Source: Byssochlamys sp. IMV 00236
Lineage: Eukaryota > Ascomycota > Eurotiomycetes > Eurotiales > Thermoascaceae
Direction: 5' to 3'
Assembly (NCBI GenBank): GCA_001931875.2
Contig: MSJH02000815.1
Coordinates: 248,001-312,000 of the forward strand
Length of the DNA stretch: 64,000 bases
The translations under genes were made by a program, and so were the position numbers. Below are positions 8,401 to 54,065 of this stretch, piece by piece; within the stretch, counting starts at the first letter, position 1; each line of letters opens with the position of its first letter. Below the pieces are notes generated by a model, which did no database searches, was not told the origin of the DNA, and worked only from the letters and a program-made list of their open reading frames with translations.

Positions 8401-11022
8401 TGCTGAGAGTTACGACTGCTGCGGAGAGCCGTTGGCACAACGACTGACGGGACCGGACCATACTCTCCGCTACCGGATGAGCAACGATGCCCTGAAAGCC
8501 GTGATGGACAAGGTCAAGGACCGTGCCAGGATCCCCGAAGCGTGGTCGGAGAAACTCGACAAGGTTCTGGAAGATGAACCGAAACCCCAGCTGAAGGTCC
8601 TCCACAGCTTGCTAAGCGAAGGTGAGAAAATCCCATACCATTTACCTGGCCTTCAAGATCTTGCGGCATTTGTCCAGCGCTGCGACAAGTGGGTAGAAGA
8701 AGCAAATAACTACATCACGCGGAAACAACAGAACCGCAGAAAGAACGAAAAGGCTTGGCGCAAGGGCAATTCCGTGAAGGCCGCGCAGCTGGAAGAACGC
8801 GATCGTGAACTTCGCAGAGTGGAGAATATCCACGCCCTACTTGCAGAGGCTGATAAACTTTCCTTCGACTGTCCACAGATGGCGGCACTGGAAGAGAAGA
8901 CCCGCGAGATCGACAAATTCCGTCAGGAAATTAACGCCGCCCTTAGGAACCCCCACATCCGGTCGGTTCAGGAAGTAGAAGACCTGGTCGAATCGAGCCG
9001 GAATTTCAATGTGGATATCCCCGAAGTAGAAGGACTCGAGCACATCCTACGGCAAATGAAATGGAATGACGAGGCCCGTCGTAAGCGTGACCAGTATCTG
9101 ACCCTGAAGGAGTGTCAGGAACTAGTCCAGGCTGGTGAGAAACTTGGTTTGGCTGACAATAATGACCACCTGCTCTTCTTCAAGGAGTTGAGTCGCCAGG
9201 GTGAGACCTGGGAGTCAAAGGCCAAAGAATTGATGTCCGCTGAATCTGTACACTACCAGCAGCTTGAGGCCCTTTCCGCGCAGGCCTCTCGGTTCCCTGT
9301 TTCTCCTGAGATCCTTACTGCCGTCGATGCGATCTTGACAAAGCAACGGGAAGCACAGAAACAGATCCAAGATATCTATGAGAGAAGTAAAGACCCGGAC
9401 TTTCGGAAACGACCCAAGTACAAAGAAGTCCGCGAGTTGATGGAGTCACTTGAGCAACTCAACAGTCGGCCAACCGGGGCGATAGACCTCGAGCGGGAAC
9501 AAAAAAGGCACGAGGACTGGATGAGGAAGGGCAAAAAGCTGTTTGGAAAAGCCAACGCTCCCTTGCACATTCTCAAATCTCATATGCAGTACGTTGAGAA
9601 AAAGAATGCGTCTTGTTTCGATCTTGAAGATAGGTGTCGGCCGCCCGTCGAGCCCGCATCGCGCGAGGGAAGTCCCGATGGCCTTCTGGAAAACCATAGC
9701 AGTGGCATGTGGGGAGGTGGCAAGTCTAGGAAGCGAGACGTCTTCTGCATTTGTAGGCAGTCGGAGGCTGGGATGATGATCGAATGTGAAGTCTGTCATG
9801 AATGGTAAGTCCCCTTTGATTGACTCGACCCTAGCCCTTAGCGGCGGTCGCGACTAACAACTCTAGGTACCATGGCAAGTGCTTGAAGATCGCTAGAGGT
9901 AAGGTCAAGGAGTTCGACAAGTATACGTGCCCAATCTGTGATTGGCGCCGAAAGATACCTCGCGACGCCGCTCGCCCAAAGATTGAAGATCTCCTGGATT
10001 GGCAGGCTGAAATCCCATACTTGCCGTTCCAACCCGACGAAGAAGAGGTTTTGGAGAACATAATCAATCAAGCTACTGCCTTCCGGGATTTTCTGCAGAG
10101 CTTCACCAATGCTACTTGCACCACCACGGAGGAAGTTCCGACATTGATATTCTATCTGCGGAAGATTGAGGGAGCTGAAGTTCTTCTCGCTTATGAAACC
10201 AACTTCTTCCGTCAGGAGATCCATAAATGGGCGCCTGTGGCACCAGAGGCTCCTCCGATCCTCGAGCAGTCGCTCTCAACACGCAAACCTCGCCCTACGA
10301 AGCAACAGAAGATAATGGCTCAACTTGGTGTCGAGCGCCCAGAGGATCTTCCACCCCATCTCCGACCGAAGCAGAATAACGTTGCGAAGCGGAAATCCCT
10401 AGAGTCCCAGACCCCGCGACCACATCCATTGCAACCAGCCTCTCAGTTCAGTTCTGATACGCCAGGAGAACGAGCTCGATCAGTTTCGGCCAGCCATGTC
10501 CCAACATTGAGCGCTTCTAGCACGCAGCAATCCCAGCCCTATCCCTTTTCCGCCAATTATTCGCTCGTCGCGAGTGATCCTACTCCAGCATTTGCAGCTG
10601 GATCTTCAGATTTCTTACCTGCCTCTCACGTCCGTTCGCCTACTTTTGCTCCACGTTCTCCGTCACACCATCAAGGTCTAGATCAGCCGCTGTTTAGCCC
10701 ACCGAGCTTCAATCGCGATCAAAACGATGGCCCTTCAGGTGTTGACATGGATGGCAACAATCCGTTCGGAAGCAGCCCTCGCCAGAACTTGGATGATGTC
10801 TTTGCCGATCTCACAAATCAGGACCCAGACCCGGAACCGGAGCCTGAGATGATGGAAAACACTCATGCCAATGAAGCTTTGGAGGTGTTGGATGCGAGCA
10901 ACAGTGGAGAGCACTCTGCGTCTCCTGAGCAGGCCAACGATGAAGCTGGCGAGAAGGGCTTGGCAAACGGTAATGCCGATGGCCGTGAAGATGCCGCGCG
11001 GAATGCAGAGGATGACTTCTAG
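5430..11022 (+). CDS. KDM5/JARID1-type histone H3K4 demethylase, 1736 aa, five exons
   Basis: Exons: 5430-5798, 5950-6862, 6952-7052, 7133-9804 and 9867-11022; phases agree throughout. Domain order is JmjN (about 80-133, split by intron 1), ARID (about 160-255, [15 protein letters not shown]), PHD1 (from about 462, [13 protein letters not shown]), JmjC, a C5HC2 zinc finger (about 858, [15 protein letters not shown]), a PLU-1-like helical region and a second PHD (about 1332-1385, split by intron 4). The JmjC iron ligands are present: His and Glu in CWHNEDHY (about residue 648) and the distal His in [13 protein letters not shown]. This is the full architecture of the Lid2/KDM5 family, which removes methyl groups from H3K4me3/me2 in chromatin using 2-oxoglutarate and Fe(II). 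The C-terminal 300 residues are low-complexity and acidic at the end. Activity is inferred from the intact ligands. Confidence 0.93.
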
Positions 11023-23212: not shown

Positions 23213-25334
23213 ATGGCTCCCCTGAAGTCTTTCATGGCGCTGTGCGCCGCATCCCTGCTACCATCAATCTATGGGCGCCACGTTCCTTTCGAACTAAATC
23301 TCACATGGGAAGTGGGAGCCCCTGATGGAAACCCCAGAGAGATGGTTTTCATGAATGGCCAGTTCCCTGGGCCGGAACTGCGAATTGATGAGGGCGATAA
23401 TGTTGAGGTTCGTGGGACTTGATGAGGCTCATTGCCTTTGCTTCGCTAACGAAGATTGCAGTTTATTGTCCATAACAACATGCCTTTCAACACCAGTATC
23501 CATTTCCACGGTATAGAGTATGTCACTCAGTTATAATATGCTGTTAGGATGCTCTTTGGAAAACAATACTGACAATTGACAGGCAACTCAACACTGTATG
23601 GTCAGATGGTGTCCCCGGCCTCACACAAAAGCCCATCCAGCCAGGAGAAAGCTTCACTTATAAGTGGACTGCTACTCAATATGGCACTTACTGGTCTGTT
23701 CCCATCTACAATGTTGACTGCATCGAACAATTACTCAAAGTATAGCAGGTATCACTCTCATGCCCGCTCTACCATGGCTGACGGACTTTATGGCCCAATC
23801 TGGATCAAGTATGTGATACAAATTACTCTCATTTTAAATGAGAGACACGCTAACCAAAGCAGTCCCAAACCGGGCTCACCGCAACCATTCGAATTGATTT
23901 CCAAAAATGAGGACGATCTTAGGGCTATGCGTCGTGCAGAGGCTAATCCACGCCTTGTTGTTTTGTCGGATTGGGATCATCTGACATCTGAAGAGTATCA
24001 AGGTCTGCAGGAATACAGTGGTCTTGACATCTTGTAGGTTTCGACGTGATCGCACCAACAGCATGTACCGCCTGCTAACTGCATTTCAGTTGCGTCGACA
24101 GCATTCTTATCAACGGTAGAGGTGCTGTGCACTGCCCTAGCGCCGATGAGCTATACAGCTACGAGACTCCTTACCTCAAGGGCGCGATTGATAACTTGAA
24201 CTTGACAGACAAGGGGTGAGTTAATCCAGTATAGTTCTATACAAAGAATCTTGCTAACGCGTCTTGTTCAGATGTTATCCTAACATTTTCAAGACCCAAG
24301 GCGGTTTCCCCTATAATGAATCCAGGATCCCTCCGGGTGTCAATTCGGGCTGTGTTGCTACCACTGGAAGTCAGGAAGTCATCGAGGTAGATCCTCAAGA
24401 AGGCTGGGCCAGTTTCAAGTTTATCAGTGCGGCTTGGATGAAATCCTTCGTCGTGTCCATTGACGAGCACCCAATGTGGGTCTACGAGGTTGACGGTCAC
24501 TATATCGAACCACAGCTTGTCGACTCATTCTCTATGTTCAATGGCGAACGCTATTCGGCCATGGTCAAACTGGACAAGACACCAAAGAACTACACTATCA
24601 GAATCCCAGACACAAATGCTGACCAGATCATTGCCGGTTTTGCAACACTCTCATACAAGAACGGCAAGGATCTTGGGCCGTCAAAGCCTTATGTCAACTA
24701 CGGCGGTCTGAATGTCTCGGCAGATGTAGTCGCTTTGAACGTGAAATCACTGCCACCATACCCGCCGATTAAGCCGGCAGCGAGCGCTGATAAGATGCTT
24801 AACCTTACTTTGGGACGCATCAACTCTTCATGGCAATGGACACTTCAAGGCAGCCAGCTTTGGGATGTTATGGCCAACCTGGATACTCCTCTTCTGTTTG
24901 ATCTCGATGCAAGGAAGAACCTTGGAAGCAAGCTTACTCCATCGACTAAGAACGGCACATGGGTCGACCTGCTACTTCAAATGGGCGAGTTCCCCAAAAC
25001 GGCTCCGATCCAAGCTCCCCATGTGATCCACAAACATTCTAACAAGGCCTTTATTATCGGGTTTGGCCAAGGGTTCTTTAACTGGACCAGTGTCGAAGAG
25101 GCTGTCCAACAAGCACCTTCAGATTTCGAATTGGAAAACCCCCAGCTAAGGGACACATTTGTCACCAACGCTCTTACTGGGCCTGCTTGGATGCTTTTAC
25201 GATACCAGGTGGTCAACCCGGGCCCGTTCTTGCTTCACTGTCACATCGAAACCCATTTGGCTTCTGGAATGGGCGTTGCCTTGCTCGATGGTATTGACAA
25301 ATGGCCCGAGGTTCCTCCGGAGTACGCCATCTAG
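23213..25334 (+). CDS. secreted multicopper oxidase (conidial laccase, Abr2/YA type), 593 aa, seven exons
   Basis: Exons: 23213-23407, 23462-23517, 23583-23693, 23749-23808, 23863-24033, 24090-24215 and 24272-25334. The six introns are 54-65 nt and phases close exactly. A signal peptide covers about residues 1-21. Copper ligand blocks are intact: IHFHGIE (about 80), WYHSHARSTMADGLYG (about 121, restored only by removing intron 3), HVIHKHSNKAF (about 489) and HCHIETHLASGM (about 561) with Met as the axial type-1 ligand. The HKH form of the third block and the MADGLYG form of the second match the Ascomycete pigment laccases YA and Abr2 rather than lignin-type laccases. It would oxidise phenolic pigment precursor in the conidial wall. 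It lies 1.7 kb upstream of the PKS in the same orientation. Two donors are GTTCGT and GTCTGT, less usual but required by phase and motif continuity. Confidence 0.9.
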
Positions 25335-27071: not shown

Positions 27072-30000
27072 ATGCGAGTAACTAGCCGCGTCTATCTCTT
27101 CGGAGATCAGACCGGTGAGTTCGAGACCGGACTTCGCCAGCTCTTGCAGGCGAAGAACAACAGTCTTCTAACGTCTTTTTTCGAGAGATGCTTCTATGCT
27201 TTGCGGCAAGAAGTATCCAAGTTGCCTCCATCACAGAGACAAATCTTCCCTCGGTTCACGAGCATCGTGGATTTGCTAGCAAGACATCGGGAGTTTGGAC
27301 CTAATCCAGCTCTTGAGAGTGCTCTCACATGCATCTATCACTTCGCATGCTTCATCAAGTAAGCCCCATCCCCCATAGGATGTCCCCCATATGATATCAT
27401 AAGACTCGACACTAATACCTGATAGCCACTATGGAGACGGAGGACATGCCTATCCCTCAGCATCAGAAAGCCATATAATAGGTCTGTGTACCGGGCTGCT
27501 GGCGTCTGCTGCTGTCAGCTCCTCCCGCACCGTGGGAGAGCTGATTCCTGCTGCTATCGAAACAGTTACGGTGTCTCTGAGACTCGGACTGTGTGTCTTG
27601 AGGACAAGAGATCTCATTGACCGCAGCTATGAAAAGTCACAAAGCTGGTCAATGGTAGTCTCCGGGCTCAACGAGGAGGAAGTTGGCGCACTCATCCATG
27701 GATTTTGCCAGCGAAAGGTGAGATACGCGTATATATTATCTATGGAAATATATTGACAATAGTAGTCTATTTCTCCTTCGTCTCGGCCTTATATCAGTGC
27801 TGTGAATACCCACAGCTTGACTATCAGTGCTCCTCCGACCATCCTGCAGGAGTTTACGAATGTCTGTCTATCCAAGGAGAACAGGCCCGTGAGAGTTCCA
27901 GTTCACGCTCCTTATCATGCTCCCCATCTTTATGATCGGCGGGATGTGACCAGTATCCTGGAGTCATGGCCGAAGGGAGAGCTTGCGAATTATACTCCAC
28001 GGATTCCTGTCTTGTCCAGTGAGACCGGCGAGATTATCCTGGCACGAAACTTGCACGAACTTCTCGGAATTGCTCTCGAAGAGATTCTGTTACGAAAGTT
28101 ATGCTGGGATAAGGTCCAGGATGGCTACGCGTCAATGCTGAAGCGAACCAGCAGTGCTGCTTGCAGAATATTTCCAATTGCATCTGCTGCCTCCCATGGC
28201 CTGTCTGCTGCTCTGAAGCGGACAGGTGTTCCTGACGTTGAGGTCGATAACACCATCAGCGAATCAGCGAAGACTTGTGATAACGAGAACTCTACCGGTA
28301 GAACCGAGCAATCCAAGATCGCAATTATAGGACTGTCTGGAAGATTCCCTGATGCCCCGAGCCCCGAGCACTTCTGGGATCTCCTTTACAAGGGACTTGA
28401 TGTCCACCGGGTAGTACCCCCTGATAGGTGGGATGTGAAGGCCCATGTCGACCCTACGGGCAAGATCAGAAACACCAGCAAGGTACCTTATGGATGTTGG
28501 ATTGAGGAGCCTGGCTTGTTCGATCCGCGGTTTTTCAACATGTCTCCCCGCGAAGCACTTCAAGCAGACCCAGCCCAGCGTCTAGCGCTAGTGACCGCCT
28601 ACGAAGCCCTTGAGCAGGCTGGCTTTGTACCTGACAGTACTCCTTCAACTCAGAAGGACAGGGTCGGTATATTCTATGGCATGACTAGTGATGACTACCG
28701 TGAAGTCAACAGCGGTCAGGATATTGATACATATTTCATTCCTGGCGGAAATCGCGCTTTCACCCCTGGTCGAATCAATTACCATTTCAAGTTCAGCGGC
28801 CCTAGCGTGAGCGTCGATACGGCTTGTTCATCCAGTTTAGCTGCCATTCACCTGGCGTGCAACTCTCTTTGGAGAAATGACTGCGACACTGCCATTGCAG
28901 GCGGCACTAATGTGTTGACGAATCCAGACAACTTCGCTGGCTTGGACCGGGGTCATTTCCTCTCTGCAAAGGGAAACTGCAACACATTCGATGACGAAGC
29001 AGATGGCTATTGTAGAGCGGATGCGGTAGGCACTGTTGTCCTCAAGCGGTTGGAGGATGCTCAGGCGGACAAGGATCCTATTCTTGGTGTTATCCTTGGG
29101 GCTTACACCAACCACTCCGCTGAGGCAGTGTCAATGACCCGACCCCATGTTGGGGCGCAAGCATTTATCTTCAATAAGCTGCTAAACGAAGCGAACGTGA
29201 GCCCTCGAGATGTTGGCTATATCGAGATGCACGGAACAGGCACACAGGCCGGTGACGCAGTCGAGATGAAATCGGTACTGGATATCTTTGCTCCCGATTA
29301 CACACGGGGACCCAGTCAATCGCTCTATCTAGGTTCCGCCAAAGCCAATATTGGACATGCGGAATCAGCCTCCGGTGTGAGCTCGTTGATCAAAGTACTC
29401 TTGATGTTGAAAGCGAATACGATTCCTCCACACTGTGGCATCAAGACCAAGATCAACCACAACTTTCCTACCGATTTCAAAGAGCGCAACGTCCATATTG
29501 CCTTCAAGCCCACTTCCTGGGAAAGACCTCAGGACGGTAAACGGAGATTGTTCGTTAATAACTTCTCTGCTGCCGGTGGTAACACAGCGCTGCTGATAGA
29601 GGATGCACCTCTTTCTACCGTTTCGGGTGCCCCGGATTCTCGTTCAACGCATATTGTGGCTGTCTCAGCGAGGTCTCAGTCGTCTCTCAGAAATAACATC
29701 CGGTCCCTTATGAAATATGTCAGCGAATTGGACGGCCAGATTGGAGGCGAAAACTTCCTCGGGAAGCTATCATACACCACAACTGCTCGCCGTATACACC
29801 ATCAATTCAGGACTATGGTCAGCGGATCTAGCTTGAAGGGCATTCAAGAGGCACTCTCCTCAGCGGCTTCCCGTGACAGCTTCACACCGATCCCTGCGTC
29901 GACTCCTAGTATCGGCTTCGTGTTCACGGGTCAAGGAGCGCAATATACTGGTATGGGCCAGCAGCTTTATAGCAGCTGTTCCCAGTTCCGGGATAATATA

Positions 30001-33000
30001 GACCGTTTCGACTCTATTGCACGGAGCCAGGGATTCCCGTCGATCGTGCCCTTGATTGATGGAAGCGTTCCGGTCGAGGAGATGAGCCCAGTTGTTACCC
30101 AGCTTGGCACAACTTGTTTGCAGATGGCCATGACTAGATACTGGATGTCATTGGGAGTGAAGCCCGCCTTCGTGCTTGGTCACAGTCTAGGAAACTATGC
30201 TGCGCTCAATGCTGCCGGAGTGTTAACAACTAGCGACACAATATACCTAAGTGGTCGTCGCGCGCAGTTGCTCCAAGAGAAGTGTCAGGTCGGAACTCAC
30301 TCAATGCTTGCTATCAAAGCAAACCTTGCACAGATCAAGCCATTCCTTGACGATGATGCTTATGAAGTAGCTTGCATCAATGCTCCAGGAGAGACTGTTA
30401 TCAGCGGTCTGAGCGCCAATATTGACGTTCTGTCTGAGAAGCTGACTGCGGAGGGGCTGAAGTCAACCAAGCTGAGAGTGCCATACGCGTTCCACTCTGC
30501 TCAAGTGGAGCCCATCCTAGAGAGCTTGGGAGAGGTCGCGCAAGGTGTTACTTTCCACAAGCCTTCAATTCCAGTCGTTTCGGCTCTACTTGGCGAAGTG
30601 ATCAACGAAGATAACTGGGATGCATTAGGTCCCCGTTATCTGCAGAGGCACTGCAGAGAGACTGTGAACTTACTTGCTGCGTTGGAAGCCACCAGACACG
30701 CAAAACTCATGAATGAGAAGACCATCTGGATCGAGGTAGGATCTCACCCTATCTGCTCTGGAATGATCAAGGGAACACTTGGTCCCCAGGCGAACACCGT
30801 CGCATCCCTACGCCGGAATGAGGATACTTGGAAGGTCCTCTGCAACAGCCTTTCCGCCATCTACCTTGCTGGAGTTGATATTCAGTGGAAGGAGTACCAT
30901 GGGGACTTCACTTCCAGCCATCAGGTTCTCCAGCTTCCTGCTTATAGTTGGGATAACAAGAACTACTATATCCCATACAACAACAATTTCTGTCTTACAA
31001 AGGGTGATCCTACGGTCGCTAAGATTGAAGCGGCACCAACCAGCCAGTTTCATACAACCTCTGTCCAGAGAATTGTGGAGACTCGAGATGAGGGTTCTAA
31101 GGCTGTTGTGGTCATGGAATCCGACCTTTCTGACCCTCTCTTGAACCCCGTCATTCAAGGGCACAAGGTCAACGGGGCCGCTCTGTGTCCCTCGGTACGT
31201 ATACCACCTTTACACGTAAAGTGCGACTATTGGTGCTGATAACTGCTTTTAGTCTCTCTACGCTGATATCGCCCAGACCCTTGGCGAGTATTTGATCGAG
31301 AACTATAATCCCGCATTGAGGGGATCAGGACTTGACGTTTGTGACATGACGGTGCCAAAGCCTCTGATCGCCAAGAACTCTGGCCCACAACTATTCCGTG
31401 CTATGGCCACGGCAGACTGGGAAGAGAGGAAAGCTAATATCCAGATATATTCTGTGAAATCCGATGGTAAGAAGATTATGGATCACGCATCATGTCTCGT
31501 CAAATTCTCCGACACCCATCTTTGGGAAGCGGACTGGAAACGCCATTCATACCTCATCAAAAGGAGTATTGAACGACTCCAGAAAAGTGTCGAAGAAGGT
31601 CAGAGTCACAGAATGCATCGCGGTATGTTCTATAAGCTGTTCAGTGCTCTAGTCGACTATGGCGACAATTACAAGTCCGTTGAGGAGGTTGTCCTGGATA
31701 GCGAGGAGTACGAGGCTACCGCTCGCGTTAAATTCCAAGCGAAGAGTGGGAACTTCCATCGCAACCCTTTCTGGATTGATAGCATCGGCCATTTGACAGG
31801 ATTTGTTATGAACGCCAACGATGCTACGGACTCTCAAAGTCAGGTGTACGTGAACCACGGATGGGATTTCATGCGCTGTCTCAAGAAGTTCTCGCCGGAC
31901 ACGACATATAGAACATATGTGAAGATGCAGCCTTGGCAGGGCACTATCTACGCTGGAGACGTTTATGCCTTCGACGGAGATGAGATCGTTGCGGTTTACG
32001 GCGGCGTGAAAGTATGTTTTTCCTTGTACATTCTCTTGGGCACGGAGAAACTGACTTCAAATTAGTTCCAAGGGGTTCCGCGACAGGTGCTGAACACTGT
32101 CCTCCCACCTGCTGGGGGGTCTAAGGCCGCTCCAAGAACAACTGCAAGAGCTGTTCCGCCTCCCCCGATCAATGTCGAGAAGCCGAAATCCTCAGTTGAG
32201 GCCAAGGCAGTCTCAAAAGCTGTTCCTGGCGACCCTGTAAAGTCAGCAGGACCAAGCGTGCTTGTTCAGGCCTTGAAGATCCTGGCAGAGGAGATAGGTG
32301 TATCTGAGGCGGAGCTATCGGATGACCTTGTATTCGCCGATTACGGCGTTGATTCTCTTCTGTCATTGACAATAACAGGCAAATTCAGGGAGGAGCTGAA
32401 CATGGACTTGGAATCATCGACATTTATTGACCATCCGACTGTCAAGGACCTTAAACAGCTTTTGTCCCAAGCAAGTCCATCTGACAGCAGCGATTCCTCT
32501 GAAGAATCGCACTACTCCTTCCGTGATTCCTCCTCAACGGAGCCATCGACTCCCGGTACTCCAGCATTCTTCTCGCCCAAGAGAGGGAGTGTAGTCACTA
32601 ATGTCGGGGAGAGTGAGACAATCAAGACTATTCGCTTGACGCTCTCCGAGGAGATTGGTGTATCTCCAGACGAAATCACGGGGGATGCTAACCTGGCTGA
32701 AATGGGCATGGATTCGCTCCTTTCCCTGACAGTTCTCGGAAGATTGCGCGAAACTCTTGACATCGAGCTTCCTAGTGACTTCTTCATTGAAAATCCGACG
32801 ATGGATGCCGTCGAGACTGCTCTTGATCTCAAGCCCAAGGCAGAACCTATTCCCTCCGAGCTTCCTGTGCCGATTCAAACCGCCGCGGGTGATGAAATAA
32901 ACGGAGTTATCAAGGCTAATTCAACTCATCCACCAGCTACTTCCATCCTGCTCCAGGGAAATCCTAAGAAGGCAACAAAGACACTGTTCCTTTTCCCCGA

Positions 33001-33748
33001 TGGCTCTGGATCGGCTACTTCCTATGCCACCCTCCCTGCAGTTTCATCCGACGTCTGCGTATATGGACTTAACTGCCCATATATGAAGAACCCTGAGAAC
33101 CTCAAGTGCGGCCTTGATGAGCTTACCATGCCATACGTGGCAGAAATTCGACGTCGGCAACCCAAAGGTCCTTATAGCTTTGGTGGATGGTCAGCTGGAG
33201 GGATCTGCGCATATGACGCTGCACGCTACCTCATCCTGGAGGAAGGCGAGAAGGTCGAACGTCTGCTTCTTCTTGACTCACCATTCCCTATCGGTTTAGA
33301 GAAACTACCTCCACGTCTGTATAGTTTCTTTAACACCATCGGCCTCTTCGGTGAAGGGAAAACACCACCTCCCAAGTGGTTGCTTCCTCATTTCCTTGCC
33401 TTTATCGACTCCCTCGATGCCTATAACGCTGTGCCCTTCCCATTTTCCGATCCCGAGCTTGGCGAAAATATGCCCAAGACATATCTTATCTGGGCCAAAG
33501 ATGGTGTCTGCGGTAAGCCGGGCGATCCACGACCAGATCCACCTACCGATGGCAGTAAGGACCCAAGGGAAATGCTTTGGCTGCTGAACGACCGAACTGA
33601 TATGGGCCCTAATGGGTGGGACACACTTGTTGGACCAAACAATGTCGCTGCTATTGAGGCCATCGAGGGAGCTGATCACTTTACCATGATGAAGGGCGAT
33701 AAGGCGGCGAAGCTCTCCGCCTTCATCGGAAGGGCAATGGCAAGCTGA
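27072..33748 (+). CDS. non-reducing polyketide synthase, conidial pigment (WA/Alb1/PksP type), 2149 aa
   Basis: Exons: 27072-27358, 27426-27717, 27766-31194, 31253-32011 and 32066-33748; introns are 48-67 nt and phases close. Domains: SAT (1 to about 360; catalytic GLCTG, Cys about 117), KS (about 375-805; VDTACSSS Cys about 547, HGTGTQAGD, NIGHAES), AT (about 908-1230; FTGQGAQYTGMG, GHSLGNY Ser about 1000), PT (about 1290-1600; GHKVNG His, WDFMRC Asp), two ACPs (DYGVDSLLS about 1684, EMGMDSLLS about 1805) and TE/Claisen cyclase (about 1890-2149; GWSAGG, GADHFTM His). Every catalytic residue is present. Order and length match A. nidulans WA and A. fumigatus Alb1, which make the heptaketide naphthopyrone YWA1 from acetyl and malonyl units. 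Intron 2 was set so that the conserved RPYISAVNTHSLTISAPP is continuous. The cytosolic product would feed wall pigment made by the adjacent laccase. Confidence 0.95.
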
Positions 33749-35103: not shown

Positions 35104-38100
35104 CTAAGTAGACATTTCTGAGCTGAATCTAAGCGCACTGCCTCTGCCTGCTGCGCCTGAGTTGTTAACGCCTGGGCTAGTAGGACGACTGTTCGTTGAG
35201 GCCCACTTAGGGCTTCGCGGTTGAGTGCTCGTAGAACGCGTAGATGGGCGGTTTCTTTTAAGATCTCTAAGCTCATCTTCTTTCCTGCGTAGCAGCTCAT
35301 CTCTTGATGCAAGAGTAGCTTCCAGCTCTTGCACTCGTGCGTAGTGCCTGGAGTCATCATTGCTCGTTTTAATTTCCTTGAGCTGTGCCGCATTCGCAGT
35401 TGCCTTCCGTTTGAGTTCTTCATTCTGTTCCTTAAGTTGACGTATCTCGAGACCGGACTGTGCAGCTGCCGTTGAAGCGTTCTGATATTGCTCTCGTGTA
35501 TACTCAGATTGCTTCTTCTCGTAATCGGCCCTTCTTTCAAGGTTCGCATTCTCTTGTAAGAGACGGCGTACTTCTTCACGAGCAGCTTCAAGGTCAGCTT
35601 CGAGACCACCACCACTCTTTAACGCTTCTCTTGCAGCTTCTAGGTCATGCTTCAATTGCGTGCGCTCATCTTTCAACTTGCTAATCTCGTCACGCTGCCT
35701 TTCAAGTCTTTGCTCTAACTTGGTCACCGTCTCAGCCAAACGGTCTCGTTCCTGCCGCGTTTTATGAAGATCCTTGGTGCGTGACTCGTATCGGTGTTGC
35801 AAACCTGCCAACTCTATTGTCTTCTGCTTGTTTCCAGATTGAGCTTCAGAAAGAGTTGCCCGAAGCTGCCGTAATTCAATAGCATGCGTGTTTTTCATCT
35901 GGATAAGACTCCTCTCCAAGGATTGTAAGTCATTGTCTAACGTCTGAGTTGGCTGCGCGGTAGAGTCTGATACCTGGCTGGTATCTTGGGATGCTAAGAA
36001 CCGCTGTCTCTTTGTACTACGCGCATCTGGGTCATCGCCATCCTTTTCTATATTAGTCATTCTTGCTTTTAAAAGAATATCCTCTCAACACTCACAAGGA
36101 CCCGTTTCTGTAGAGAACCCGCTGTCTGCATATACTGAAGACTGGGATCAATAGCTTCTGGCCCTAAGGCAGAAGCAATTTCCGCTGGACTGAGAATCTG
36201 GAGCGGTTCAATCGTCGGCCAAGACCAGCTTGCGTTGAAATTGTCAGAAAGAAGATATGAAAGGAGTTCTTCCGCATCCTCGTGGACATTGAGGGCATCA
36301 TCTTGAAGATCGCCCACTGTATCATGAAGGCGATAAATATAATGTGCAAGAAGGCGAAGGCGCTGTAGTTCAGCGAGATTCGGTAAACAACGCTCAATAT
36401 GCTCGCTGCTATTTGAAATAAGAAATAGAACAACAGGGAGTAGGTTTCCATTCCGGGCAAAGGTTGTCCGCAGGTGCTCTATAGAAGGGTTCTTTGCATT
36501 GAAGGACGAGTCGAGAGAGAAGATGGCAGTTGGGTTTCTGTAAAGCTCAATGACACCATCACTTTGCGCTGAGCGGATCCCGAAGCTCAGTGCTCCTTTG
36601 GTCATCGATATCTCGACATTAGTGCCACTGCCCATTTCTGAACGAGGTCGAGTATATTCAAATCCCTTTCCCAGGAGGTATCGCTCCACGAGATCTACAG
36701 TCTTTCCTTCTCGTACCATGAGAATAATGTGGAGCTCATGACTTTCCGCCATCTCCACAAAGTAGCCTAGCAGTTGAAACTTGGAGCTCGAATACTCTGC
36801 CCAAGCAGCTTCCTTCTCTGGATCACTTGGTGAATCTTGAATGTGTTCAGCTATGTTCAAGTCGGGGTGTACCGTTGTGTTGTTTAGCTTCTCTACCACT
36901 CGGCGCATCTGAGATATCACTTGTTCTCGCTGTGAAAGTCAGAGACCAGACTACAACTGTCAATAGATTATCGGCTCACCTCATTGTTCCCAAGTATCGA
37001 TTCAGATGTGAATAGAGAGTGGAAGTTTTTGATGACATGTGACTCGTCGGTTAAGATTCGTTCATAGACGTCCTTCACCCTAGAATCCATAGGAAGAGTC
37101 ATGGCGAATTCTGACGCCCCAAGTTGAACTGAGCCGGGAGGAGCCTCTTCCGCGGGAACGACAGTCAAATCGCTGGGCTGGATTGTCTGCATCAGAGGGC
37201 CCTCATGGTATTCAGGGAGTGCAGCTCCAGCGTACGTTTGTCCGGGCTGGTCATGTAGATCGGCTGGTGCCGCATGTGAAGTCGGTTCCTTATCCACTCG
37301 AATACTAAGAGGAGACGTAGTTTCGGGTGCTGATGCTGCTGCGGGTTCAATGTCCCCGGCAGACGACGGAGTGGCACTAGCACTGACGCTTTGCAAAGTT
37401 CGAGGGGGAAAATCGGCCTGCAGTTGAGCATACAGGCTCCTCAGTTTTTCCCTCGGGGTAGAGCCAGGAACATGGTCGTATCTCTCGGGGACACCGGATT
37501 TTGGCGCCCTGCTGCTATCCGGGCTGTTCTCCATGATGGCGGAATTCTTTTCGTAATAACTGTAAAGAGTTGGGAATAACGGCGTGATCCTACGACAAAG
37601 GATAGGTTCAGTCCTAGGGTTTGAGTCCTGGGTATGTCTCACGGAGACAGAAAGCGTGCGCTGGCTAAGATTGTGTAGCCCGTAGCCTGTTTGAGATCTG
37701 ACAGGGTTCTGGTTAGAATCAAATACGGTCTCCGGAATTGAACTTATTTGAGACTGTGTTGACTTTTTGGCCTGGGTAGATGGCGTTTCGACCCGCACTG
37801 GAAGGGCTTCAGGAATGGATTGCGTCTCAGCTATCTCATCCGCTTGGATTGTTGTAGTCTGGAAGTGATAGACGTCTCGCAAAGACCGGCAGTATTGGTT
37901 AACGATACGATCATGAGATGAACCTATCGACCCAGATATTGCACTCGAAGACGATATGTGAGTCCCAGTGACAAGCGAGCTTTGTGTGCTGTTAACGCTA
38001 GACTTCTGTAGAGCGCCTAAAGTCTGCAATGTCGCACCAATTGAACGCAGAGGAGTATTTTCCACAGATGATGTGCCAGTTGTTGATGGTGGATTTGAGC

Positions 38101-47934: not shown

Positions 47935-49337
47935 AAAAGGGTTAAACTGAGCCTTGGTATGGCCCTGTATAGTAAAGGTTAACTGGCATGCGTTCTTCAC
48001 TGGGTTGGGGGAAGGCTTGGGCGAAATCCTGCGTCTGCTTTAGTTTTAATGCAAGATGACATGAAAGGACCAGCATCTCGATGCTATGTAGTCTACCATT
48101 GGTATCACGATTGCTTCTACATTGGGGGGTTTTACGGGTGATGGGGACAATGGCACTTCTCATGAATTCCTACGATATCTATTTCCGTTCCTTCTTCTTC
48201 GTTGTAAGATAGCACCATCGCAACAGCCCTTCTCTGGGGAGATCACGGATTTTCTCACTTTGAGATTTGTCCACAGTACCCCTTCTTCTAGTTGTTGACT
48301 CGAGAATCATGCTCTGCGGCGTTGACTACTTTTCTTCCACCAGCAACAACATGCGTCAGTATCATCAGTGCGTCCGTCAGCGAGTCAGCTTTGCCTTCTA
48401 CGTGGAAAACGTCACTATGCTCTTTGAACCCTCTTTGTGTACGCCACGCGAATATTCGGATCGATATTGTCTGGTGTTATTCTCCCAAGGACATGGTGCT
48501 CCCAATTATACTGGCGGATGATTTGCACCGTGACAAGTTGAGAATGATAGCAATTGCACCGAACACCCTTCGTGCTCGTCATCAATGCTGCAAATCAGAA
48601 TGCGTCGATAATCTACATAGCGGCTTAGGGCCAGTTGTTTGCCCAATGAGCCACCAATGGAGCCGGCGAAGCTATGTAGATGCGCCGTGTGCTACCTTCC
48701 AAAACAAAGAATGTATATTCTAGGTATATAGTAGGTTCTGTGCTATTTGGAGAAGGATAATCGTTATTGTAATTTTCTTATCCTGAGTGTCGGCATATGT
48801 ACTTACTTTCCCTGCTTAAGAGATACAAATTATACACTCCGATTTTACCATTAAGCAGTTTTGAAAGGAGGCGGAGTTATGATAGCTTGTCATCTTAGTG
48901 CTGGTTAAGCACTTGCAGGAAGATGATATATACTATATTTAATGCTCGGCTGCTTTACGCTACATACTACGTAATACTGTCGAATGTCTCTTCGCTGCCC
49001 TGTGCCAGAACTGTAGCTATATCGGTTTAACTCTCAATAGGTGCACCACTCTCACTTAATATTGTCGAATTATATCCCGGCACACTCAGGAATACTGAAA
49101 CAAGAAGCTAAAATTAGAATAAAGAGGAATGACGGTGAGTATAGAATACATTGCTGGTTTTATATTTACAAGGAACTGAACTTAGGACCTCGGGACACTC
49201 TCCGCAACTTAGTATTGCTTATCAACTACAGCATCATGCCACCCCCTTCACTGCGACATTATCCTACTTCAGGTTGCAATGTCCCTATCATGGGGTATAG
49301 AACCAAAAAAAATCAACAAGAAGGAAAAAAAAGATGT
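47935..49337. other. 1.4 kb intergenic region
   Basis: This region becomes AT-rich after about 48700. Overlapping open frames at 48267-48723 have no conserved motif and are not called. The T-run terminator of the first tRNA gene lies at its right edge. Confidence 0.5.
49324..49332 (-). terminator. Pol III terminator of tRNA-Ser copy 1
   Basis: Reading leftward, eight T residues follow shortly after the tRNA 3' end (the A-run on the given strand). This is the standard RNA polymerase III stop and supports transcription of the tRNA copy as a Pol III gene. Confidence 0.75.
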
Positions 49338-49476
49338 CGACAGAACTGGGATTCGAACCCAGGCGGGCGAACCCACAGGCTTACTATTTGGGGTGTTAGT
49401 TGAAAATTCGAGTTACGGTGTCTTTTGTAAAGGCTACTTACGCAGGCCTGCACCTTAACCACTCGGTCATCCTGTC
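49338..49476 (-). tRNA. tRNA-Ser(GCU), copy 1, interrupted by a 58-nt GT-AG-bordered intron
   Basis: The 5' half is 49476-49442 and the 3' half 49383-49338. Together they give an 81-nt class II tRNA: a 7-bp acceptor stem (GACAGGA with TTCTGTC, one G-T pair), a D arm with GAGTGGTTAAGG, an anticodon stem CAGGC/GCCTG, a long variable arm (GGG-TTCG-CCC type), a T arm CTGGG-TTCGAAT-CCCAG and discriminator G, all typical of tRNA-Ser. The anticodon loop becomes CTGCTAA, anticodon GCU, if the intron at 49441-49384 is removed. That intron begins GTAAGT, contains CAACTAACACC and ends AATAG. Cutting instead at the usual eukaryotic site after position 37 would leave loop CTGCGTA, with a wrong GCG anticodon and U at 37. 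A T8 terminator follows. Confidence 0.85.
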
Positions 49477-50280
49477 AAGATGATGGAAGATGTTCCCTTT
49501 TGACGTTTCTTAAATTGGATATCGAAACACCAACTCTTGAAACTCACGTGATAAATAGTTTTGGCAAGCATAAACATTTGAGCAGTTCCTATATAAAATC
49601 CCTTCTAGGTTTAGGATCGATTGGTTTTTCGGCTGATGTAAAAGTTAAAAGCTAAATTCAGAAGTAACAAGCTCAGTGTGAGGGGTGTGTAGAGGGCGTG
49701 GGAAGAAACAGGATTGTAATAAGACCAAATCGCTGGAGTTCTGAGGTGCATATTGTTTGTTATTCTGGTAGGGGGATGCTGGCGGATTGCACTTGGTTCT
49801 GGGAAATTCCTGATGTTTTGTTGAAGGCGGCAGATTTTTGCTTGCCTAAATTGGCAATCATAAAGCGTCCGTAGTAAACCTGGCTGCATGTCGTCGTGAA
49901 GCTCGGGCCTACAAGGCTGAGATTACTCCCACTCAAGAGTTTCTTCTTTTCCTGTATCATAGGTCGTATTGTTTACAACCTGAATATTGTTCTTGAGAAT
50001 CTCCAAGCCCTATCGTTTACGGTTTCCAAACGTTAGTTCGCTGCTCCTAGATCACCGACCTTTCATTCTCAATGTCCCCGTCATTTCCCCTTCTTTACAT
50101 AAAAAGAAAGGACGTCCTACTCCGATAAAGCGCTAAACAGTGACCAATCATCTTCATAGATTGAGAGGCAAGCTTAACTGAACAGAGTATGATTTACTTG
50201 GACCTGACACAGAAATGATGACTGACTCCAAGCAATAAATTCATAGGAAGAACAAGCCATGTCACCTAAGTTTCCAGATC
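49477..50280. other. AT-rich intergenic region
   Basis: No gene, tRNA or transposon signal is visible. The first bases after the tRNA 5' end (CATCATCTTGACAGG read leftward) resemble the same flank of the second tRNA copy. Confidence 0.5.
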
Positions 50281-51043
50281 ATGAAAATTCTATCTCCATT
50301 GATATCGCCTTCCAGGAAGACCAGGACAATGTCAAAAGTGATAAAGGAGACGGAGGAGGAGGAGGGTGACAACGAAGGTAATGAGCGCAAGGAAGACGAG
50401 GAGGATAAAGACATGCGCGCTCAGAAAATCATATACACGGGAATAACTGTACTAAACAAAAACAGTCGTGTCCCGGATGGGGACGACAATCCCGTTCCTT
50501 GGATACCTGATGCTTCCGTGAGGGAAACTGTGTACCAAATCCGACAATTTCTGCGGACTCGCCCAATAGCCATAGTGAGAGTTATCCGAGAAAGCATAGG
50601 TTCCGGGAGGGAAAGCGATCTCGAAAAGGCACTGCCTTACTGTGGATACATCTTCGTAAATGGTCCTTGGAGAAACGCACTGATAAGATTTGGGATCAAC
50701 CCAAGGACTTTATTTGAATATCGCCTGTACCAAACTATCACGCTGAAAATGGAGTGTGGTCCTATTATTGAATGTGGGAAGCAGGACTGTGCTGAGAAAG
50801 ATGATATTGCCTTCCCTTAACTCGAAAGGGACAGTGATTCTCATCTTATCAACGGAAAGAAATCCATTCCAGACGATAATACCTGGCAAATCTGTGACAT
50901 AACAGATCCTCTTTTGCAGACCCATTTTAGCCAGGGGACAGCTCCGTTCCGAAGTCTCGTGGAAAGATGGATTCTTTTGGAATGGCACAATGGCTAAGCT
51001 TGAGGTCATCATGCGCGATGAGTCAATCAGTCAGAGATGGTAA
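50281..51043 (+). pseudogene. decayed fragment resembling TFIIIC subunit tau95 (Sfc1/GTF3C5)
   Basis: Conserved-looking segments follow the order of the C-terminal half of TFIIIC tau95: a helical segment RQFLRTRPIAIVRVIRES, then LPYCGYIFVNGPWRNALIRFG, RLYQTI, NTWQICDITDPLLQ and DGFFWNGTMAKLEVIMRDE. The frame is broken. A TAA at 50818-50820 interrupts it, with matching sequence continuing in the same frame after it. A +1 shift near 50922-50930 (CATTTTAG) is needed to reach the last block. The family's N-terminal domain is absent; an acidic Glu-rich segment precedes. An intron with weak borders could remove the TAA, but an intron ending at TTTTAG would also delete the conserved CDITDPLL, so decay is favoured. 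The parent protein binds the A box of tRNA genes for Pol III transcription. The family match is from memory of motifs, without a search. Confidence 0.5.
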
Positions 51044-51121
51044 CATCCCTCTCGAGAGAGATATGAATCCCCACAACGCGATCGTATCAGGTATGGAATA
51101 GAGTTTGGCCAGACATATACT

Positions 51122-52939
51122 ATGAAGCAAGCTTTCTTAAGGGGAAATATATTACGCAGGGCACGTATATCTCTTTCCCAAAGATCGATGATGCAGACTC
51201 AGAACGGCTCCCAGAACAACACTCCTGCACTTGAAAAGCCGCTGACCGAAGACAAACTACAAACAATTGATAAAATAGGAAATAAACAGTCGGCTCAGCG
51301 CCTTTATAAACGAACATTGAAGATATTTTCCAAGGAGGAGAGGTTGAATGCAATTGATTTTCTTCGAACACGGAAACACGTCAACCCCACAATCGGACAG
51401 GAGCGATCCATTTCGATCTCAAGTGCATCTGAAGTCCTGTACATCGGCGAGGGTACGTTGAAACGGTGGATAAAAGAGGGAGGGAAAATCGTAGAAATGC
51501 GGCAGGGGTCGTCAAGAGCAGATGGGCCAAGGAAAGAACCCGTCAAGATAACAGACCAGTATGATTCAGGACATTATCCATTCCTCATGCTATCGCCAGA
51601 AGAACTGCACAGCTATGAAGTCATACAACGAAATGAGTTGGACAAGGTACTGCCTACGACGGGATTCCTCTTCTGAGATAATTTACAGATATTTACTTAC
51701 TATGGAATAGCTACATCCTTTTGAACATCCAGTCCCTTTCATCGGGATAGAAGGAGGCCGATCTGGGCGACTGAAAACTTTCGAGGATGCTTATAAGTAT
51801 CTCGGCCAACAGACCCAGACTTTCCACATTGGACATCCACTTGAACCCTCTGAACCCTCTGCAAATAACAAGATGGAAAAGCCAGTACAACTTCCAGATC
51901 CTAATTCCACAAGTTCCTACCTGAGAGACCCAAAGTCTCAGGGGATAATCAAGAAAATGACAGCACAAGAAGTTAACTCTTGGCTTTACAGCCTTTCGCC
52001 AAAGTATGAACCCAGAACACTTTGTTCAACAGAGCGAAATCCTTTCTATCACGAGTTGACGACGTGTGTTGCCTTTATATGTCAGCAGATGATGGCTGCA
52101 AATGATAAGGTGAGCGATGATAATACATATCTCCGCTAGATACCGATGAAGTATGTTGATTGTCTGCATAGCTCGAGTCTGCACTTCCAGTCCAGGTCGA
52201 GTTTGGTTACGACCAACCTTTCCAAGATGCCCCCCAACAATGGGCCATTAAACTTTTGTTCACCACTGACATCGAGATCCTGCTTCCATTGGCACTATGT
52301 CTAAAAGGTTCTGTTAAAGATGAAGTCGCTCCCGACTCCCTCTATCTTCAAGGCTGGACTATAGACCATGCCTTGTTGCCTTGCACAGGGCAGAAAAGGA
52401 CAAGAAAAAGGGAGAAGTCAATCAAGTATATGCAACAATTTTATGAGAACTCACGGCCTATTTTTGACAAGTTCAGGTTGAGTCCAGTACTGTATATCAC
52501 AGATATTGATATGCTGTTTCTTAGAACGCCGGGTTGGCGGCATGTGGACTACGAATTGTCCATGAAGGACTTGGTCGAGATTACTTCACCGTATGTCTCA
52601 GACAAGCATGGTATGATGGGTACACTATTCCTGAGATGTTATGGAGGTCTCAAAACCAATGGTGAGACGCCTCCGAAGATCAGAGACCACCTTCGAAATG
52701 TTTGCGGCTACGACAAAGACAAAGTCCAGCTATTATCCTGGTTTTCTGCTCATGATATGCAATGCTTTCTCAGAATCCTTTCTGGAAATGATGGCTTGAT
52801 CCAAGACAGGATGTCTCATCTGAACGCATCGAATTCTCAATCGATCAATGTAGGTAAGCTATGCCGAGACCTCTTTCCAGGACTTGCCTCGGGCAGACTT
52901 AGGACAGTGCATCAATATCTCGAGAAGAAAACAGATTAA
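51122..52939 (+). CDS. protein of unknown function with HTH-like segment, 563 aa, three exons
   Basis: Exons: 51122-51646, 51711-52109 and 52172-52939; both introns (64 and 62 nt) are phase 0 and the joined frame is fully open. An alternative start is the Met at 51188 (MMQTQNGSQNNTP). At about residues 70-125, FSKEERLNAIDFLRTRK followed by SASEVLYIGEGTLKRWIKEG has the spacing of a psq/CENP-B-like helix-turn-helix, where a helix reads out DNA through a TLKRWI-type segment. The rest (KMTAQEVNSWLYSLSPKYEP, then PPKIRDHLRNVCGYDKDKVQ) matches no family I know. There is no signal peptide, membrane segment or catalytic motif. It sits between the two tRNA-Ser genes next to a decayed fragment, an accessory context. 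DNA binding is a guess from one segment. Confidence 0.55.
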
Positions 52940-53485
52940 TCCAGCGGAGAAGATTACCATAACGCCTCGTACGATACTGCAGCGATGGTGGACATTATCA
53001 ATGTTCTCGTGGGGTTGGTTAAGTCCATTTTGGAATCCCTGGCATAAATCAGAAAGTCGACCCAGGAGAAATTAGTTACTAGATTCTATCTTAACCGGTT
53101 AATCAGGAACATGGTCAGATGACAGGGTATGATATAGAAGAACATGCATGCTTCCTATGTTGAATTAGGTACATAGGAGCTGAATGTCTTATTAACTGAT
53201 ATAGTTGTAACAGAAATCATCCATCCCTCAAAGTAGAATATATTTATATACACCGAAAAAGTATAGCCCGAAAACAGTGCATACTACAACGAAAGCCTTC
53301 AAACGCTGCTAGGGTTACTATCTTACATTTAACCAAGCGCACTCCGAAAGGAGCAGATCATGTTAGGTAGGTACATACATAAAAAAATCCGAATAGGCTG
53401 AGATGCCTGCTACGAAGCACACTCTTCGCTTCAGCGTCGACCGATAATTTGGCAAGATTAAAGGGAAAAAAAAAGATTTAAATGT
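52940..53485. other. intergenic sequence before tRNA copy 2
   Basis: No gene is seen. It is AT-rich and ends in the A-run that forms the terminator of the second tRNA gene. Confidence 0.5.
53466..53474 (-). terminator. Pol III terminator of tRNA-Ser copy 2
   Basis: Nine T residues in the leftward reading, about 12 bases past the tRNA 3' end, form a standard Pol III terminator. Confidence 0.75.
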
Positions 53486-53621
53486 CGACAGAACTGGGAT
53501 TCGAACCCAGGCGGGCGAACCCACAGGCTTACTATTTGAGGTGTTAGTTGAAAGTCGGGCTACGGTGTCTTGTAAAGGCTACTTACGCAGGCCTGCACCT
53601 TAACCACTCGGTCATCCTGTC
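53486..53621 (-). tRNA. tRNA-Ser(GCU), copy 2, interrupted by a 55-nt GT-AG-bordered intron
   Basis: The 5' half is 53621-53587 and the 3' half 53531-53486; both are identical to those of copy 1, giving the same 81-nt class II tRNA-Ser. The intron at 53586-53532 also starts GTAAGTAGCCTTTAC, carries CAACTAACACC and ends CAAATAG. The middle differs from copy 1 by substitutions and a 3-nt length change, while the three splicing-like signals do not. Same orientation as copy 1, 4.1 kb away. Its first bases upstream (CATCATCTGACAGG) are also similar to copy 1, so the pair arose by duplication. As in copy 1, the standard 37/38 intron position does not give a serine anticodon. Confidence 0.85.
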
Positions 53622-54065
53622 AGATGATGACTATTTTTTCCCGAAATAAGCTACTTCACCCAAACATACAGTGCCCCATAGCTATGACCTCTTAATTGAT
53701 CAGTCTTTGGAGCACTGGATCTCCGGAGGTACAACGGCTTGCCTCAGCTTGGGTGTAGATACTGCCACTCAAGCGCAGGCTGAATGCTCACCTGTAAAAC
53801 CAGGCCTTTCTTCTTCCTTCGCTTCTTTCTGCTGCAGGCAGCCAACATTAGCCGCGTGCGCTTTTTCTTGATGACGTCCCACTTGAAGCTCACTTCTACC
53901 TGAGCCTGAGCGATGCCCAGAGACTTCGACCTGTTCACGCATCTTCCCTTGTACGTTCGCAGCGAGCGCAGACACTTCTCAATAAGCGCCCCGCATCATT
54001 TACCAAAGCCCTCTTGCTAAGAGACTTGTGGCACTGACCGCGGGGCTAGTTTTCCGGCAGGTCAG
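53622..54065. promoter_or_regulatory. promoter side of SUMO protease and tRNA 5' flank
   Basis: This 0.44 kb lies between the 5' end of the leftward tRNA and the start of the rightward SUMO protease gene. It becomes C+T-rich toward its right half, as expected for the protease promoter. Confidence 0.45.

Follow-up and report, generated by a model that had tools for sequence, protein, structure and literature searches.

The tRNA-Ser(GCU) gene studied here, which lies on the minus strand of the window (the whole 64-kb stretch of DNA analysed), is interrupted inside its anticodon, and the question raised by this locus is what kind of intron the insert represents and which machinery would take it out. 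The gene, hereafter copy a, is laid out as follows:

49338..49476, minus strand: tRNA-Ser(GCU) gene, copy a; 139 nt before splicing; 42.9 bits against Rfam RF00005; ARAGORN call on the spliced form, tRNA-Ser(gct)
49442..49476, minus strand: exon 1 of copy a; 35 nt, tRNA positions 1-35, with CTGC at its end; the same in the other two copies
49384..49441, minus strand: putative spliceosome-type intron of copy a; 58 nt, between tRNA positions 35 and 36; GTAAGT ... CTAAC ... TAG
49395..49399, minus strand: branch-site-like CTAAC of copy a, 11 nt from the intron end
49338..49383, minus strand: exon 2 of copy a; 46 nt, from the anticodon-loop TAA through the discriminator G; B box GGTTCGAATCC
49325..49332, minus strand: Pol III terminator-like T run of copy a, 8 T

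In an Rfam search of the region 49000-54000, copy a gave an end-to-end match to RF00005, above the gathering score of 29, although the search of the whole window at the gathering score listed only a second copy (53621-53486, 43.1 bits; see below) and not copy a. The gene is complete in its parts, having an acceptor stem, D arm, anticodon stem, long variable arm, T arm and discriminator G. Because the bases that flank the insert differ from each other, the 35/36 boundary is fixed and cannot slide; its ends are GT and AG, and the insert therefore starts with GTAAGT and finishes with ATAG, with CAACTAAC inside it and 11 nt following CTAAC. The signals given in the initial annotation (GTAAGT, CTAAC and a terminal TAG) are thus all present.

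Joining the exons at GT-AG yields an 81-nt product that ARAGORN calls tRNA-Ser(gct), while the product joined at 37/38 is called tRNA-Arg(gcg). Of the eight pairs of 5′ and 3′ cuts tried, all of which give an anticodon loop of 7 nt, the 35/36 pair alone gave GCU together with A37; removal at GT-AG restores GCU in 3/3 copies of the gene. The spliced product carries the identity features of a serine tRNA (class II body, long variable arm, discriminator G and a serine anticodon), as judged from ARAGORN and from the sequence. Cutting the Ser(GCU) genes at 37/38 leaves a GCG anticodon followed by U37, so the insert does not sit at the canonical place. Both outcomes, serine with GCU and A37 after GT-AG removal and GCG with U37 under the usual rule, had been anticipated in the initial annotation, and the cut trials and ARAGORN agree with it on each.

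Copy a is one of three such genes. The second, which went unmentioned in the earlier reading, is ~4 kb away, and the third is on contig C783.

53486..53621, minus strand: tRNA-Ser(GCU) gene, copy b; 136 nt before splicing; Rfam 43.1 bits; 95% identity to the copy-a region
53532..53586, minus strand: putative spliceosome-type intron of copy b; 55 nt, at the same insertion site as in copy a
53543..53547, minus strand: branch-site-like CTAAC of copy b
53466..53474, minus strand: Pol III terminator-like T run of copy b, 9 T

The exons (35 + 46 nt) are identical across the three copies, and the inserts, of 58, 55 and 55 nt, differ; within the inserts the signal columns are invariant in 13/13 cases, compared with 31/45 of the remaining columns (Fisher p 0.016). 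Identical exons, boxes, acceptor stems and T runs around diverging introns appear to reflect selection on the mature tRNA, and, as these and the other insert-bearing copies are few and related, recent duplication or conversion may account for part of the conservation. An introner-like mobile intron was considered and rejected: the copy-a query with its intron matched the three tRNA loci alone in the genome, which leaves no close repeat family, in a method blind to diverged relatives. The 5′ half of the Ser(GCU) gene found no match in viral or prokaryote contigs.

Inserts with similar signals were found at two further sites in other tRNA genes of the assembly, in the T stem of Ser(CGA) and Ser(UGA) genes and in the D loop of tRNA-His genes.

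Contig C806: tRNA-Ser(CGA) genes L040 and L041, with 37/38 introns of 25 and 23 nt and T-stem inserts of 56 and 60 nt
Contig C478: tRNA-Ser(UGA) gene L064, with a 37/38 intron of 15 nt and a T-stem insert of 55 nt
C613:52719-57562: tRNA-His genes L070, L071 and L072, with D-loop inserts of 53-54 nt; GTGAGT and ACTAAC

The T-stem inserts lie between positions 51 and 52, right before the B box, and carry GTAAGT or GTATGT, CTAAC, and CAG or AAG (AAG being the acceptor in Ser(UGA)); 12/13 of their signal columns are invariant, against 11/47 of the others (p 1e-5). Since these genes retain an ordinary 37/38 intron as well, they would need both splicing machines. A decayed fourth Ser(CGA) gene (L038, C577:199531) has a 37/38-type insert and is without the T-stem insert; it is either the older, insert-less state or a copy made after insert removal.

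The least secure part of the case is tRNA-His. For the D loop to be normal and the product 71 nt long, the length of an A. niger tRNA-His, the excision has to end in TTG, with TG and not AG at its boundary, and excision at the first AG past the branch would remove most of the D arm; the insert may be a GU-UG intron or something else. No other tRNA-His was found in the main genome by the His T-arm and anticodon-arm patterns: the six anticodon-arm places are the three genes plus three that are not tRNA-like by eye, and the four T-arm places are the three genes plus a Gln-type gene. A. niger has an intronless 71-nt tRNA-His, a tRNA-His with a 12-nt intron and a tRNA-Ser(GCT) with a 23-nt intron (PMC6108506).

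The pattern CTAACN{3,20}AGN{0,30}GGTTCGANNCC matched 20 places in the assembly compared with 8 in the reversed control: three Ser(GCU), two Ser(CGA), one Ser(UGA), three His, nine Glu-type, one antisense Leu and one other, labelled by eye and in some cases with ARAGORN calls. At the nine Glu-type places CTAAC is part of the gene's own D loop. Neither a CTAAC farther upstream of the B box (8 places, control 9) nor CTGAC in place of CTAAC (6 places, control 9) gave a clear further insert, in searches that mostly demanded CTAAC and a GGTTCGANNCC B box. One CTGAC place (L111, C603:46083, within C603:45960-46300, minus strand) has an A-box-like TAGCTCA...TAGAGC and a B-box-like GGTTCGACCCC ~150 nt apart with the CTGAC between them; it has neither an Rfam nor an ARAGORN tRNA match, and is perhaps a decayed tRNA or a tRNA-like repeat. 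At its gathering score, Rfam listed 4/4 genes with ordinary introns, 1/3 T-stem genes and 0/3 D-loop genes, and genes with inserts of this kind may escape annotation. The misses of ARAGORN were discarded as evidence on the inserts: it found 0/9 insert-bearing genes, but also 0/4 of those with ordinary introns.

An mRNA intron in the window serves for comparison:

9805..9866, plus strand: mRNA intron in a gene for a JmjC/PLU-1 protein; 62 nt; GTAAGT ... GACTAAC ... TAG

The reading frames around it fuse into one frame of 1195 positions with a single stop, and it has the layout of the tRNA inserts, a likeness already remarked on in the initial annotation. In the 64-kb window there are 4 matches to the strict pattern GTAAGT..CTAAC..YAG, where 100 first-order Markov resamplings give 0.23 on average and 3 at most; two of the matches coincide exactly with the tRNA inserts of the window, a third is the mRNA intron and there is one more; the looser GTRWGT..CTRAC..YAG occurs 13 times, against a resampled mean of 3.95 (maximum 10). 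When each insert was shuffled 400,000 times, the 5′ and branch signals fell into place in 0, 1 and 4 shuffles for the three Ser(GCU) copies, and in ≤7 for any of all nine inserts.

Across all nine, the donor at the exon boundary is GTAAGT, GTATGT or GTGAGT, which are common spliceosomal donors, and the length is 53-60 nt; CTAAC is present in each, a count biased by the fact that 6/9 were found with a pattern containing CTAAC, the three Ser(GCU) copies having been found without it. The distance from CTAAC to the end is 10-13 nt in 9/9. An acceptor AG stands at the exon boundary in 6/6 tRNA-Ser inserts, as TAG, CAG or AAG (the last a rare spliceosomal acceptor), and in 0/3 tRNA-His inserts, which end in TTG if the D loop is normal. 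The 37/38 introns of the Ser(CGA) and Ser(UGA) genes have neither a GT start nor CTAAC (3/3), and a GT start is found in 0/8 canonical-position introns of other tRNA genes, with boundaries placed by eye; one of those eight (Lys) has CTAAC near its 5′ end.

The surroundings of the inserts are those of Pol III genes. An A box and a B box are present in all nine insert-bearing genes (by the box consensus as generally known, from which the His A box, extending into the insert, departs once), and 5 to 10 T in a row begin 5 to 13 nt past the gene end in 9/9; together, boxes and T runs make Pol III transcription likely.

Whether the split genes matter for decoding depends on what else in the assembly could read AGC and AGU. 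The spliced 81-nt query returned six pieces, the two halves of each of the three split genes, and nothing else in the assembly. A pattern for the GCU anticodon arm followed by a GGTTCGANNCC B box, which admits an uninterrupted arm or a 37/38 intron no longer than about 28 nt, matched 2 places compared with 6 in the reversed control; one is a real, uninterrupted tRNA-Ser(GCU) on contig C111, and for the other no tRNA match was obtained. The initial annotation had named intact Ser(GCU) genes elsewhere as a possible source of all AGC/AGU decoding, and the C111 gene is the sole one found. We set it aside as the gene of another organism, the contig being Rhizopus-like, with a GC content of 0.35-0.38 and a PMCA-type ATPase 99% identical to that of Rhizopus microsporus; a second AT-rich locus encodes a lipoyl synthase with 94% identity to R. 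microsporus.

The assembly (47.4 Mb, 840 contigs) is fragmented and may be incomplete, its loci fall into two GC classes, and it seems to be a mixture of a Paecilomyces-like fungus and Rhizopus, so that genes have to be counted separately for each organism. C111 and C177 are examples of AT-rich contigs that carry R. microsporus-like DNA. The catalytic domain of the tRNA splicing endonuclease (PF01974) was found at two loci, both on long contigs of the assembly, which suggests that the Rhizopus part may be incomplete. By their GC content of 0.44-0.51, the remaining loci would belong to the Paecilomyces-like genome. One protein of the window is 98% identical to Paecilomyces variotii (Eurotiales, Thermoascaceae) over 93% of the query, its nearest match, and Aspergillus, the genus that the initial annotation proposed for comparison, is probably wrong. 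Three other AT-rich contigs (C276, C382 and C383, with loci L020, L021 and L022), each 38,045-38,047 long, have a tRNA match at corresponding places, called tRNA-Phe by ARAGORN in L020, and are perhaps unmerged copies of one sequence. In the window itself, large frames at 27802-33748 resemble a polyketide synthase by eye, and a multicopper-oxidase-like frame at 24264-25334 adjoins them, possibly as part of a secondary-metabolite cluster.

The window has 14 long open reading frames, and among the 8826 codons of 13 of them 271 are AGT or AGC. With AGY codons in use and no other GCU-serine gene found, AGY should be read through the split genes; this would not hold if the assembly lacked an intact gene or if such a gene had a B box of unusual sequence. 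The tRNA survey behind this covered 63 of the 1741 Rfam first-look candidates, which were scored, and the first part of a D-arm listing of 180 places; the Paecilomyces tRNA-Ser(AGA) was not located within this survey.

Several explanations other than a spliceosomal intron have to be weighed against these data. Two of them leave the insert to the tRNA splicing endonuclease (Sen), which the assembly encodes and for which ordinary 37/38 introns exist in the genome. The Sen complex might remove the insert at a shifted 35/36 site, with tRNA ligase joining the halves, as the initial annotation had allowed. Sen uses a pair between position 32 and intron position -3, and at 35/36 this anticodon-intron pair is absent in 3/3 Ser(GCU) copies; the helix of a bulge-helix-bulge (BHB, 3-4-3) at this cut has 0, 0 and 1 of 4 pairs in the three copies, so that no BHB is formed there, and the best BHB helix among the eight cuts, with 3 of 4 pairs, is at 38/39 (a test on the Ser(GCU) copies). 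A shifted endonuclease site would also leave the GTAAGT, CTAAC and AG signals, and the like inserts in T stems and D loops, without explanation. Non-canonical eukaryotic tRNA introns are described for Cyanidioschyzon merolae and nucleomorphs (PMC4090602), and even with this precedent we regard shifted Sen cutting as very unlikely.

Alternatively, Sen might cut the Ser(GCU) genes at 37/38 and produce a serine-type tRNA with GCG and U37, in which case the gene would lose its AGY role, or two tRNAs would arise by two routes. C32-G(-3) can form for this cut in 3/3 copies, and the pair test therefore does not argue against canonical cutting; the product is, moreover, the one that ARAGORN takes for tRNA-Arg(gcg). 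A pairing base would, however, stand at that place by chance in ~1/4 of cases, a serine tRNA that reads the arginine codons CGC/CGU would be expected to cause much misreading, and AGY codons, which are common, would be left with no GCU-serine gene outside the Rhizopus-like contig; cutting at 37/38 is accordingly a highly improbable account. The third alternative is that the interrupted genes are pseudogenes or silent, and that AGY is served by an uninterrupted gene that the assembly or our searches missed. An assembly in 840 fragments and apparently mixed gives some room for this, as does the dependence of the intact-gene test on a GGTTCGANNCC B box, the partial D-arm listing (of 180 places) and the Rfam scoring of 63/1741 candidates. 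The three copies, however, share their exons exactly and keep the A and B boxes, the acceptor stem and the T runs around diverging introns, which looks like selection on the mature tRNA, and we give the pseudogene view very little credence.

The reading we prefer is that the Ser(GCU) insert is, very probably, a U2-type spliceosomal intron in a nuclear tRNA gene transcribed by Pol III. The suggestion in the initial annotation of a non-canonical position, possibly spliced by the spliceosome, is thus the best supported one, with splicing itself inferred from the gene sequence; its alternative, an endonuclease that tolerates a shifted site, is disfavoured. Against the preferred reading stand the C32-G(-3) pair available for a cut at 37/38, the TG end that the His inserts would need, the rare AAG acceptor in Ser(UGA), and the single-strand folds of the Ser(GCU) precursors (the third copy with 3 extra nt), which contain no cloverleaf and are of ordinary stability (z -1.7 to -2.1). 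Pol III would use the internal A and B boxes to make a transcript ending at the T run, and the spliceosome would pair with GTAAGT and CTAAC and join C35 to U36 at GT/AG, creating the GCU anticodon. Splicing would probably be nuclear, before or alongside the trimming of the 5′ and 3′ ends. RNase P and RNase Z recognise the tRNA elbow, which a T-stem or D-loop insert breaks, so that in those genes splicing should precede end processing, in the nucleus. In the two-intron genes the Sen endonuclease would finish after the spliceosome. The reading of AGC/AGU would depend on the spliceosome, because no other GCU-serine gene assigned to the main fungus was found. For the Ser(GCU) genes the sequence, the boundaries and the three copies are observed, as is the failure of our searches to find an intact copy, and from these we infer transcription, splicing, the order of the steps and this dependence.

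Extended to all nine genes, the spliceosome would be obligatory for all GCU-Ser tRNA, for CGA- and UGA-Ser (together with Sen) and for all tRNA-His (through a GU-UG D-loop intron), and the supply for translation would be tied to splicing capacity, a wider proposal that we hold to be probable on balance. If tRNA genes do contain spliceosome-type introns, one of them within the anticodon, there would be a second nuclear route of tRNA splicing, which would make tRNA supply dependent on the mRNA splicing machine, and there would be free-living fungi whose tRNA genes carry two introns of two kinds.

The Ser(GCU) inserts share with the U2-type introns of fungal mRNAs the GTAAGT donor, the CTAAC branch, the YAG acceptor and, at 55-58 nt, the length; unlike those introns, they are hosted by a Pol III-type tRNA gene with exons of 35 and 46 nt and no open reading frame. 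Spliceosomal introns are also contained in the rRNA genes of lichen-forming ascomycetes, which are alike in having a spliceosome-type intron in a non-coding gene outside Pol II transcription, and differ in that the host is rRNA and Pol I rather than tRNA and Pol III. For tRNA genes, no spliceosomal intron is reported in the open-access titles and abstract beginnings among the matches listed; the novelty of the inserts would be that of spliceosomal introns in a type of host RNA for which none was found described in that literature.

The precedent for combining Pol III with the spliceosome is the U6 gene of S. pombe, which has an mRNA-type intron in a Pol III RNA (PMC8917221 and PMC10484740), for which reverse splicing close to the catalytic nucleotides is the presumed origin (PMC10484740). 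U6 is a component of the spliceosome, whereas the hosts here are tRNAs. Archaea, C. merolae and nucleomorphs have tRNA introns at unusual positions, sometimes several per gene; in archaea and C. merolae these are recognised by a BHB-like structure, and the mechanism by which nucleomorph introns are cut is given as unknown (PMC4090602). The Ser(GCU) inserts differ from the archaeal and C. merolae introns in that no BHB was found at the 35/36 cut. In reviews and tools on tRNA (among them PMC4090602 and PMC8450103), eukaryotic tRNA introns are described as substrates of the endonuclease that usually sit at 37/38, in most cases with a single intron in a gene, and the tRNAscan-SE 2.0 paper limits eukaryotic tRNA genes to one intron (PMC8450103). 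Like canonical Sen introns, which are present in this genome, the Ser(GCU) insert interrupts the anticodon loop; unlike them, the inserts described here are at 35/36, at 51/52 and in the D loop, they carry mRNA-type signals, at 35/36 they have no BHB, and they bring the number of introns to as many as two per gene.
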